A model generated the notes under the pieces. That model was not told the origin of the DNA. It did no database searches and saw only the letters and a list, made by a program, of their open reading frames with translations. This document shows positions 9,606 to 13,154 of a stretch of DNA of 64,000 nt, in pieces. The stretch covers positions 1-64,000 of the forward strand of contig JANQOF010000046.1 in NCBI GenBank assembly GCA_028279215.1, in the 5' to 3' direction. The first letter of the stretch is position 1, and every line of letters begins with the position of its first letter. Source of the stretch: Pirellulales bacterium. GTDB taxonomy: Bacteria > Planctomycetota > Planctomycetia > Pirellulales > Lacipirellulaceae. A program made the position numbers and the translations under genes.

Positions 9606-10340
9606 ATGCGACTTGGTCCTTCATTAATCGGTGCGATCGTCGGCGGTGTGATTGGGGTAGCAGCGCAAATCGGTTTCGAGAGTTCACTTGGTCCCGAAGC
9701 TAGTTGGTTTGCAATCATCATCGGGCTACTAACTGGTTTGGGTGCACGGGCTATGGCTGGCGACGGTATCCGCAAGGCGAGTATCGCTCGGGCGGCTCTG
9801 GCAGGCATCATAGGATTGGGGGCCATCGTCGGCGGCAGCTACGCCGCTTCGGAGGTCGTCCGAAACAAGAACATCGACGCGTACGAATCTGCCGACGCTG
9901 CGCCGATCAAGTCCGCAGCCACTGCCGATAAGGACAAAGAAGAGTCGACTGACGACGCGAAGGACTCGGACGCCGCGTCTGCCGACGACGCCAGCGCCGA
10001 CGACACTGCAAGCGACGATGCGGACAAGACCGATGAAGACAAGACCGATGAAGGCGACACGGCCAGCGACGCCGACGCTGAGGAGTCCGGTGATGCAAGC
10101 GACGATGCTGGATCGACCGACCCCGATTCGGCCGACGAAGACCAATCCGACGAACCAGCCGAGCCAGCGGAAAAGAAGACGCCGGTCTCCGTGGACCTAT
10201 CGAAACTCAACGACGGCACGCCAGTCAACACGGAGTTGCCACCACCTTCGCCGTTGCAGTACGTATTCTTCGGCGTTGGGACATTGCTCGCTTACGAACT
10301 AGCACGCGGAAGCGACAAGAAGCCGATGGGTAACGCCTAG
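9606..10340 (+). CDS. membrane protein with long acidic Asp/Ser/Ala tail
   Basis: This 244-residue protein is not recognised. The reading frame is open from 9207, but that part is antisense to the LeuB-family gene; the ATG at 9606 follows GGGGAG at about 9592-9597 and begins a plausible membrane protein. Three hydrophobic Gly/Ala-rich segments occupy about residues 1-80. A stretch of about 90 residues then consists almost entirely of Asp, Ser, Ala, Glu, Lys and Thr (DDASADDTASDD-like repeats), giving a strongly negative charge. A final hydrophobic segment (PLQYVFFGVGTLLAYELA) lies near the C-terminus. The acidic block could bind cations or act as a flexible spacer. The next feature downstream is a hairpin-dense non-coding region. 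Confidence 0.75.
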   Translation: MRLGPSLIGAIVGGVIGVAAQIGFESSLGPEASWFAIIIGLLTGLGARAMAGDGIRKASIARAALAGIIGLGAIVGGSYAASEVVRNKNIDAYESADAAPIKSAATADKDKEESTDDAKDSDAASADDASADDTASDDADKTDEDKTDEGDTASDADAEESGDASDDAGSTDPDSADEDQSDEPAEPAEKKTPVSVDLSKLNDGTPVNTELPPPSPLQYVFFGVGTLLAYELARGSDKKPMGNA

Positions 10341-10873: not shown

Positions 10874-11437
10874 TCAGGGGTTCACCCAACCCCAATGTTT
10901 CACCGGCGATAACACGGCCCATGCTCGCCCGATGATTTGATTGCGCCTGATGACGCCGTTGAAGCGACTGTCGTCGGAGTCGCGCGAATCGTCGCCCAGG
11001 ACGTAGTAGCCTGCTTCGCATTCGTATCTCACCGACCCGGTGAGATTTCCGTAGGGGAAGTATCTGAGATCGGCGATTTCACTTGGTGGTTCCAAAGGCT
11101 TGCCGTCGATCACGACTTGGCGATCGCGGTTGATGGTGATGGTTTCGCCTGGCAGGCCAACTACCCGTTTCATAATTACCACACCGTTCGATGCGGGAAA
11201 CGTAACGACTTCCCACCTACGTGGTTCGCGAAACTGGTAGCTGAGTTTCTCAGTGAGCACGAGGTCGCCGGTATCGTGGTTCGTGCCCCAAAGTGTTGGC
11301 GCCATCGATTCGCTTACCACGCGCGACGTATGGAAGCAGCAGTGATAGAACGTGAGCCCGATGCCCACCACCGCAAAGCCATTCCAAACACAGCGGACCG
11401 TGCGGCCGAACCAAACCGAGTAGCGGCGGCTAGCCAT
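10874..11437 (-). CDS. lepB: signal peptidase I
   Basis: This is a type I signal peptidase (S26A), which cleaves signal peptides from exported proteins at the outer face of the inner membrane. The ATG at 11437 is preferred because it overlaps the stop of the upstream gene by 8 bases, giving 187 residues; the frame is open further upstream but inside that gene. One transmembrane helix occupies about residues 15-32 (numbered from this start). SESMAPTL carries the nucleophile Ser44 and VVIMKRVVG the general base Lys90; the GDDSRDSDDSR box near the C-terminus is the family's last conserved motif. It is compact, with one membrane anchor. It is the third gene of an operon after a radical SAM enzyme and a small membrane protein, suggesting a dedicated rather than general peptidase. 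Confidence 0.93.
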   Translation of the reverse strand: MASRRYSVWFGRTVRCVWNGFAVVGIGLTFYHCCFHTSRVVSESMAPTLWGTNHDTGDLVLTEKLSYQFREPRRWEVVTFPASNGVVIMKRVVGLPGETITINRDRQVVIDGKPLEPPSEIADLRYFPYGNLTGSVRYECEAGYYVLGDDSRDSDDSRFNGVIRRNQIIGRAWAVLSPVKHWGWVNP

Positions 11438-11747
11438 CGACACGATCCGCCAGATCGTCTTGCTGTTCTTGTTCGAGTATGCTGTCGATCGTTGCATTGC
11501 GATTCTGGAACTCAATGCGCGACGAACGGGTTGCACCCGCGCAGCTACTAGCTCGCATCAGAGGCAGAATCAAACCGAGTCCGACGCAACCGAGGCCGAT
11601 GTTGGCCAGCCACGTTCGCAGGCTCACGGCACGTTTATTCGTGAAGGGCACCGGTGATACTGGTCCGGACGGATCAGGAACATCCTGTGCGCCATCGACC
11701 TCATCGGTGGCGAATTGATCGTCTGGGGATGGAAACTCCTTCGACAT
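11430..11747 (-). CDS. small single-pass membrane protein, candidate radical-SAM substrate
   Basis: This 105-residue protein is not recognised. GAGGAG lies 5 bases before the ATG at 11747, and the gene sits 21 bases after the radical SAM gene and overlaps the signal peptidase gene by 8 bases, so it is very probably real and cotranslated. Residues 1-35 are acidic and proline-rich, 36-45 basic, 46-64 a transmembrane helix (C-terminus outside by the positive-inside rule), then RASSCAGATRSS at 65-76 and a polar tail. Cys69 sits just beyond the helix, and AGA at 70-72 fits a signal peptidase I cleavage site. The helix plus LPLMRAS...R..F.N also resembles a degenerate DUF1559/prepilin N-terminus. 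Either a modified secreted peptide or a pseudopilin-like protein is possible. Confidence 0.75.
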   Translation of the reverse strand: MSKEFPSPDDQFATDEVDGAQDVPDPSGPVSPVPFTNKRAVSLRTWLANIGLGCVGLGLILPLMRASSCAGATRSSRIEFQNRNATIDSILEQEQQDDLADRVDG

Positions 11748-11768
11748 GACATCTCCTCGGCAAAAAGG

Positions 11769-12851
11769 TCAAACGGGAACGATTTGCGAACTCATATGTG
11801 CGCGCTGCTCGATCACTCGTAGCGTTTCTTGATAGCAAGTTTGGTCCAACAGGCAGAGCAGGCCATCCGGACGACGAACGTCTCCCGTGCGAATGAAGTT
11901 GCTGCATCGGCACGATGTGGAACACTGCGGTTGCAGTGCGCAGCCAGCGCAATCGGAGTGTATCGGCCCATCCGGCGACAACAGGTCGAGAAAATCATCG
12001 CCGACCAGAGCCGTTCCAGGTAGACGCGCGGTGTTACTGGGCAGGTCTGCACCAACGAGTCGCTCGCACGGGTAGAGATTCCCCGACGGCGCGACGGCAA
12101 CTTGCCCGTCGCCAAACCCACATCGTCCCGTGCAGCTCGCAACCGGAAGGTCAGTAATTTGAGCCGCCTTCTCGTCAAACCAGCTTACCGAGAGTTCTGG
12201 CAACGCCTGCGACCAGATGTCGGCTGCCCGGGCAATCGCGTTGGCAAGCTCTCTTGCCTGTTTGCGCGACCAGGCGGACCAGACGTCGAGCGACGGGGTT
12301 ACATGCCGCACACCTTTACTGTGGAGGTGCTGAAGTCCACCTGCCATGAATTGCGCCGTATCGGGGCGAACGACCATCACGACTCGTACCTCGACATCAG
12401 CAGCAACGAGCCGCTCTATCGTGTTCAGGACCACGTTCGACGTGCCCAGTCCGCGACGGTCGACGCGATGGCGATCGTGCACAGCTGGCAAACCGTCGTA
12501 ACTGATGTGGAGTGCAAGATCGGGCCTGAGCATGATGCGCCACGCTGCTTCGTCTTGGGCGGTGCCGTTAGTCGTCATTCCCAAACGCAGGTGCATCCCT
12601 GCCGAGGCGCTTCGCTGGTGCGAATAGGCGATGAGATCGTGAATCAGGTACGCTTCAAGAAGCGGTTCACCGCCGAAGAAGTCGAGTTCCAACGTCCCGC
12701 CGGCTTCGAGTGACGCCAACCCTCGGTCGATGCTCCTGTAGCCGACCGCGTGTGGCATCGAGCGGTGGACCTTCGCGCCAGTGTAGCAATAGCGACACCT
12801 GAGGTTGCACGCATGGTTGACCACCAGCGTGAGATTTAGCGCAGGGTACAT
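11769..12851 (-). CDS. radical SAM/SPASM domain peptide-modifying enzyme
   Basis: This 360-residue enzyme uses S-adenosylmethionine and a 4Fe-4S cluster to start radical chemistry. GGAGG about 8 bases upstream selects the ATG at 12851 over a GTG six codons earlier. The cluster motif CxxxCxxC is at Cys15, Cys19 and Cys22, followed by the FFGGEPLL glycine-rich motif. The C-terminal SPASM region has CTGRCGFG, then YPCERL, then C.GC....C..SC.C and a final Cys, enough ligands for two auxiliary clusters. That layout is typical of enzymes that modify ribosomally made peptides or mature sulfatases (anSME). No sulfatase is nearby; the next gene is a small membrane protein and then signal peptidase I. 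Peptide or protein modification is likely, but the substrate is inferred. Confidence 0.9.
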   Translation of the reverse strand: MYPALNLTLVVNHACNLRCRYCYTGAKVHRSMPHAVGYRSIDRGLASLEAGGTLELDFFGGEPLLEAYLIHDLIAYSHQRSASAGMHLRLGMTTNGTAQDEAAWRIMLRPDLALHISYDGLPAVHDRHRVDRRGLGTSNVVLNTIERLVAADVEVRVVMVVRPDTAQFMAGGLQHLHSKGVRHVTPSLDVWSAWSRKQARELANAIARAADIWSQALPELSVSWFDEKAAQITDLPVASCTGRCGFGDGQVAVAPSGNLYPCERLVGADLPSNTARLPGTALVGDDFLDLLSPDGPIHSDCAGCALQPQCSTSCRCSNFIRTGDVRRPDGLLCLLDQTCYQETLRVIEQRAHMSSQIVPV

Positions 12852-12980
12852 GAAGTGGGCCTCCGTCACCTACTGTGATCGCCCGCCTGGGCCGGCGCGG
12901 CGCCCCTGTTCCAAGCGGAGATTCGCCGTGCTCGACAGGGATTATTCCCACGGAGGCCTAGAATGGTTCTCCATGCTGCT

Positions 12981-13087
12981 CCCTCGCCCGTTTTGCGGGA
13001 GAAGGTTGGGGTGAGGGCAATTGCATTCGGGCTAAACGTTCGCCCCTCACCCAGCTTTCGGCCACCCTCTCCTCTCAGGGGAGAGGG
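12981..13087. repeat. REP-like intergenic palindromic element
   Basis: Two G/C-rich arms in inverted orientation flank a short spacer: the left arm (about 12981-13017) contains CCCTCGCCCG and GGGGTGAGGG, and the right arm (about 13041-13087) contains CCCCTCACCC and the tight hairpin CCCTCTCC...GGGGAGAGGG. The arms are imperfect reverse complements, so the whole unit can fold on itself. Similar CCCTCACCC/GGGAGAGGG units are common intergenic repeats in planctomycetes. It lies between the promoter side of the radical SAM operon and the 3' end of the methylmalonate-semialdehyde dehydrogenase gene. The remaining bases of this ~300-base gap show nothing else. Confidence 0.65.
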
Positions 13088-13154
13088 ATTTGCAACTGGC
13101 TCGAGTTGAAGTTAAGCGGCCGCGTTGCCCGGGCCTAATCGAGGGCGGCAACGC

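Follow-up and report, generated by a model that had tools for sequence, protein, structure and literature searches.

A sporadically recurring three-gene cassette of Planctomycetota links a radical SAM/SPASM enzyme, a single-helix small protein and a compact signal peptidase I and is consistent with a RiPP-like pathway

Genes and features of the locus

The window (the whole stretch of 64,000 nucleotides analysed here, from a Pirellulales bacterium) carries on its minus strand a cassette of three closely spaced genes that encode, in this order, a radical SAM (rSAM)/SPASM enzyme, a small protein with one hydrophobic helix and a signal peptidase I (Table 1). A check of the open reading frames found all three where an earlier note, made from the sequence of the window, had described them, and the overlapping start that it had reported for the peptidase was borne out as well, the ATG at 11437 overlapping the stop of the small-protein gene by 8 bases. 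The start of the rSAM gene (ATG 12851) is backed by alignment with 15 orthologues. Scans of the locus for promoters and terminators returned nothing above chance level. The intergenic sequence upstream of the operon contains a REP-like dispersed repeat (window 12955-13115) that is present in 16 copies in the genome, the 15 others being 70-84% identical to it, and at window 9700-10340 there is a plus-strand open reading frame in which hydrophobic stretches are followed by a long low-complexity region rich in Asp, Glu, Ala and Ser.

Table 1. Features of the cassette, with window coordinates and the basis for each assignment.
Feature	Position	Strand	Basis
Radical SAM/SPASM enzyme, 360 aa	11769..12851	-	PF04055, AlphaFold, invariant residues
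Small single-helix precursor-like protein, 105 aa	11430..11747	-	Alignment, hydropathy, AlphaFold
Pro-rich leader motif DPSGPVSPVP, residues 25-34 (family form DPxGPPxPV)	11646..11675	-	Alignment
Predicted transmembrane helix, residues 46-64	11556..11612	-	Hydropathy, AlphaFold
GATRS, residues 71-75; proposed G71/A72 cut, bases 11535/11534	11523..11537	-	Alignment, -3 rule, helix break
Proposed released tail, 34 residues, ATRSSRIEFQNRNATIDSILEQEQQDDLADRVDG	11433..11534	-	Alignment, AlphaFold
Compact signal peptidase I (S26), 187 aa	10874..11437	-	TIGR02227, Ser/Lys dyad

The rSAM enzyme matches PF04055 (1.7e-13) and has the CxxxCxxC cluster site as CNLRCRYC (residues 15-22), in which C15, C19 and C22 are invariant. 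Eight further cysteines towards the C-terminus (C244, C262, C301, C304, C310, C314, C316, and C333) are invariant in 16 sequences and conform to the SPASM cysteine pattern, with the generic Pfam SPASM profile being weak on this family and matching one of ten members. The sequence begins directly at the radical SAM barrel, which leaves no space ahead of it for a recognition domain of typical size, and an N-terminal extension the size of an RRE is absent. Among the folds listed for comparison, the AlphaFold model (pLDDT 85) matched CteB (Z 34.0 and 2.6 Å across 332 residues), ChlB (Z 30, 336 residues aligned), and anSME. By profile, the enzyme failed to reach the curated cut-off for any of the NCBIfam maturases listed, the best-scoring being PapB (NF047865, 169 vs. 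340 bits); the anSME profile (TIGR03942) gave 82.5 bits against a cut-off of 349 and the QhpD profile 116 bits, far below its cut-off.

The linked peptidase passes the NCBIfam signal peptidase I model TIGR02227 (92 bits vs. a cut-off of 47), in keeping with the earlier description of a compact enzyme of this type, and its Ser44 (SESMAPT) and Lys90 (MKRVVGLPGE), which are both invariant in the family, constitute a Ser/Lys dyad. No second close copy was found in the genome of the bacterium.

Distribution, linkage and co-variation

Within a sample of 396 genomes from the order, 13 besides that of the window encode an orthologue of the rSAM enzyme with 50-56% identity. The carriers represent 11 of 144 genera, counting the genus of the window, and none of the three species examined from that genus has an orthologue. 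A further orthologue (47% identity) is encoded at L028, in a named Planctomycetota MAG, which was the sole locus to come from a scan of contigs, and more distant relatives occur elsewhere in the phylum. Among the genomes sampled within the order and the phylum, the three-gene unit recurs sporadically across one phylum, the Planctomycetota, an assignment based on L028 and on the relatedness of the sampled genomes. In all we collected 21 cassette loci from 20 genomes. The earlier note had proposed a search for the same gene order in other planctomycetes, and the order of rSAM enzyme, small protein and signal peptidase is exactly retained at 19 of the 21; at the two variant loci either the small protein and peptidase are swapped (G413) or a GATRS protein and the peptidase lie 6.6 kb from the rSAM gene (G252). 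That the order is kept at 19 loci despite differing flanking genes indicates that the linkage exceeds chance. No fourth conserved gene was detected at the 21 loci, as the other recurring matches were antisense shadows of the cassette or sulfatases.

The three proteins co-vary. Pairwise identities of the rSAM enzyme correlate with those of the signal peptidase (r = 0.90) and of the small protein (r = 0.81), neither value being reached in 2000 permutations, and a correlation of this kind is expected for genes that are inherited together. Searching with the window's small protein as a single sequence was enough to bring up, among the top matches, the proteins that adjoin the rSAM gene in G072 and G078. 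A small-protein profile recovered all 14 rSAM-bearing genomes of the order sample plus three others, making the small protein present in only three of 282 rSAM-less order genomes, and in the phylum sample it recovered exactly the six strong rSAM genomes; as the profile had been built from most of the order members, their recovery is partly by construction and Fisher values for it should be read with caution. Independent of this are the rarity of the small protein in the 282 rSAM-less genomes and the recovery of four genomes outside the building set, G252 and, among the six of the phylum sample, G600, G612, and G715. Distant rSAM matches also came from G451, G453, G535, G625, G471, G505, and G564; the neighborhood check covered the first four, and no such small protein or peptidase adjoined the rSAM gene in them.

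QhpD acts for quinohemoprotein amine dehydrogenase and anSME for sulfatases, and the match of both profiles to the rSAM enzyme, together with the occurrence of a sulfatase within about 8 kb at seven of the 21 loci, would be consistent with a cassette that matures a protein cofactor or the subunit of a larger enzyme, with no free peptide. We consider this very improbable, as a fourth conserved gene is absent, both scores are far under their cut-offs and the genome is rich in sulfatases (36 matches), none of which lies in the cassette. The earlier note had regarded consistent linkage to sulfatases as contrary to its proposal, and no such linkage emerged: the 310 kb of flanking sequence contains nine sulfatases, at those seven loci, all of them outside the cassette. 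Since the genome of the window averages one match per 127 kb, there may be a mild excess near the loci, measured against a rate that is known from this genome alone.

Architecture and natural variants of the small protein

From N- to C-terminus the small protein consists of an acidic, proline-containing region, one hydrophobic helix (predicted at about residues 46-64, mean Kyte-Doolittle value 1.82) and then SSCAGATRSSRIEFQNR. No convincing Pfam or NCBIfam match was obtained, weak hits to FtsL (0.003) in two members being judged to have arisen by chance. Alignment revealed two conserved blocks, DPxGPPxPV before the helix and C/T-x-G-A-T-R-S-x-x-L-x-W-x-x-R after it, with the tail better conserved than the leader. 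The earlier note had singled out SSCAGA just past the helix and asked whether residues 60-105 are conserved; SSCAGATRSS does follow the helix and the region is conserved, most strongly at residues 71-87, with the informative unit being xGATRS. Within this unit G71, A72, and S75 are invariant and T73 and R74 are conserved at 90% or more, and the block begins 4-10 residues beyond the predicted helix. Further conserved tail residues are L/I78, R83 and an aromatic at tail position 9, the last (counting F and H) being present in 18 of 21 members and missing in G078, G413, and G439. The AlphaFold model is disordered over residues 1-37 and has a helix at 38-70, a break at exactly 71-73 and a second helix at 74-104 (pLDDT about 95).

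A small protein with a single N-proximal helix might also be a degenerate prepilin or pseudopilin, with the linked peptidase as its processing enzyme, which the earlier note had offered as its alternative in the form of a modified pseudopilin. We regard this as extremely improbable, because the peptidase belongs to S26 and is not a prepilin peptidase, the lack of a shared fourth gene means that there are no pilus assembly genes, the conserved residues follow the helix, which is the wrong side for a prepilin, and the cytosolic G/A prepilin cleavage motif directly before the helix was not conserved in the 15 sequences compared.

The position of the candidate cleavage site can be narrowed from the residues at -3. 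Signal peptidase I follows the AXA rule, by which a small residue is required at -3 and M, R, H, and P are not normally accepted. With a cut after the glycine, every cassette member has C, T, S, or A at this position. With a cut after the alanine, M, R, H, or P would frequently occupy it, and the predicted cut is accordingly placed after Gly rather than after Ala. The earlier suggestion of a modified peptide cut at or near AGA to leave a tail of about 33 residues is therefore retained as regards a cut beyond the helix and revised as regards its place, which would be after G71 (between the second and third residues of AGA) and would yield 34 residues.

Natural variants bear on the direction of insertion. 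In G252 three tandem paralogous small proteins are encoded 66-1071 bases downstream of the rSAM gene (L052, contig C46). Their leaders keep DPNGPPxP (NPLGPPVP in one), their tails are unrelated, and their helices are preceded by positive charge and end in LSGC, LSGC, and LSAC, which are lipobox matches. Recognition leaders typically reveal themselves as a common motif joined to variable tails, and this combination of a shared motif, differing tails and lipoprotein signals favors a recognition leader with an exported tail; it is possible that these paralogs are lipidated variants within the same pathway. In most members, conversely, the tail side of the helix is flanked by slightly more positive charge than the leader side, and under the positive-inside rule this weakly favors a cytosolic tail. 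N-terminal regions of acidic character can cross the membrane with no classical signal, and one could therefore envisage the acidic N-terminus outside and the conserved tail permanently rSAM-modified in the cytosol, with the peptidase serving another substrate. The linkage and co-variation of the peptidase, the small residue at -3 and the lipobox paralogs all argue for a tail on the outside, and we consider a cytosolic tail quite improbable.

Relatives that lack the rSAM enzyme help to separate the roles of the two conserved blocks. In G062 (L090, contig C188) an internal deletion has cut the rSAM gene to about its first 30 codons, but the signal peptidase is intact and two small proteins are encoded in tandem; in G043 a small protein and peptidase pair occurs without an adjoining rSAM gene. 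All three small proteins from these two genomes lack the proline motif and have the GATRS-type boundary, indicating that modification is not needed for whatever maintains the boundary and the peptidase. A simple pattern for the proline motif fits 18 of 21 cassette proteins, 3/3 of the G252 paralogs and 0/3 of the rSAM-less proteins, which, with numbers this small, ties the proline motif to the rSAM enzyme and the GATRS block to the peptidase. The same tracking is consistent with the membrane-retained N-terminal part being the product, the rSAM enzyme modifying the DPxGPPxPV region and the peptidase only trimming or activating the anchor. We think this unlikely, since the tail is conserved better than the leader, an unexpected pattern if the tail were simply discarded, and the rSAM-less comparison comprises three proteins.

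A candidate maturation pathway and its relation to known systems

We judge it probable, with some reservation, that the cassette is a RiPP-like maturation unit in which leader-guided rSAM modification is followed by tail-out insertion and release of a helical peptide by a dedicated signal peptidase I; the cassette matched no named peptide family. What the data establish is the gene order, conservation, co-variation, domain identity and catalytic residues, and, as in RiPP systems, a small precursor-like protein is linked to a modifying enzyme and has a leader block separate from its core block. It is further favored by the fold of the rSAM enzyme, nearest to the peptide maturases CteB and ChlB, by the GATRS block being the peak of conservation in the small protein, and by the export implied for the lipobox paralogs. 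The helix-flanking charges weigh weakly against an exported tail in most members, no tail residue that known rSAM chemistry requires (Cys, or the aromatic at position 9) is universal, and the boundary and peptidase survive in the two rSAM-less genomes.

We infer leader recognition, modification, the direction of insertion and the cut site to be as follows. The precursor would comprise a disordered cytosolic leader bearing DPxGPPxPV, then a helix that acts as signal anchor, then a tail, also helical, of 30-56 residues or, in one divergent member, 81. In the cytosol the rSAM/SPASM enzyme would recognize the leader motif and modify the precursor before or during its insertion into the membrane with the tail outside. 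The signal peptidase would then cleave C/T-x-G-A-T-R-S between G and A, freeing into the periplasm a helical peptide that starts with ATRS; removal of the leader to give a mature peptide is suggested by the linked peptidase and the -3/-1 pattern.

With regard to chemistry, five rSAM-linked small proteins (G100, G130, L028, G600, and G715) lack Cys, which rules out a Cys thioether (ranthipeptide or sactipeptide) as the common product. Trp-based cyclophane chemistry is possible for most members, the aromatic at tail position 9 being less than universal. Oxidation of the formylglycine type was also rejected, as the conserved region has no correctly spaced C/S-x-P/A-x-R and the sulfatase maturase profile is far under its cut-off.

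Several known systems share parts of this arrangement. PapA/PapB resembles it as a ranthipeptide system with a leader-guided rSAM/SPASM maturase, and PapB is the top-scoring named family, but the cassette enzyme reaches only half of that family's cut-off and PapB joins Cys to Asp/Glu in its own substrate (PMC9413430), a Cys-Xn-Asp/Glu arrangement that the Cys-free precursors cannot provide. The nearest solved folds, CteB/CteA (SCIFF) and ChlB/ChlA, share only about 17-23% identity with the rSAM enzyme; ChlB is near it in size (about 370 aa) and its structure was solved with the leader, but the cassette precursors differ from those of both systems in being membrane-anchored. The MNIO RiPPs ChrA, MelA1, and DybA have signal-peptide leaders and are modified in the cytosol before predicted export and cleavage by signal peptidase I or II (PMC12636315). 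Like the cassette precursors they bear their own export signal, and their lipobox/signal peptidase II route resembles that suggested for the G252 paralogs, but they depend on an MNIO enzyme, which was not found as a conserved cassette gene at the 21 loci, and on general-pathway processing in place of an rSAM enzyme and an operon-encoded S26 peptidase. TMcin has a transmembrane-helix precursor and a dedicated protease acting in the membrane (PMC13252029), but that protease is site-2-like, the product retains the helix and the hosts are Gram-positive. The cassette peptidase itself shares the Ser/Lys dyad and TIGR02227 score of signal peptidase I (MEROPS S26) and differs in its compact size and in co-varying with one small protein. 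S26 enzymes are absent from a review of the proteases that remove RiPP leaders (PMC10885120), and our literature search, which covered few subscription journals, found no radical SAM peptide system with its own signal peptidase I.

A broader proposal, which we hold tentatively and with some doubt, is that the cassette represents a new RiPP class, defined by signal-anchored precursors, leader recognition through DPxGPPxPV, chemistry other than Cys thioether formation, and a dedicated signal peptidase I (the lipoprotein pathway in a variant) through which helical peptides of variable sequence are set free, or lipidated, on the outer side of the membrane. If the pathway operates as proposed, it would constitute a new export and cleavage route for radical SAM peptides and would indicate secreted modified peptides in a phylum with few known. 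The combination of DPxGPPxPV, a helix, xGATRS and an S26 peptidase would then be a signature for genome mining that present profiles overlook, and the Cys-free precursors of several members make the rSAM chemistry itself a question of interest.

The divergent systems of G413 and G439 retain little beyond C/T-x-GAT and the peptidase, and what is common to these deepest relatives and to peptidase-linked proteins of one family is approximately an xGA[TS] boundary with a peptidase. The latter proteins form a sister group in that family of the phylum (L114, L125, and L126 in G584, G571, and G543, with L095 in G413), where an adjacent rSAM gene was seen in G413 only and a compact signal peptidase adjoins a small protein that has a single helix, xGA[ST] and, in its tail, a motif resembling RRRCMELGVTPxEL.
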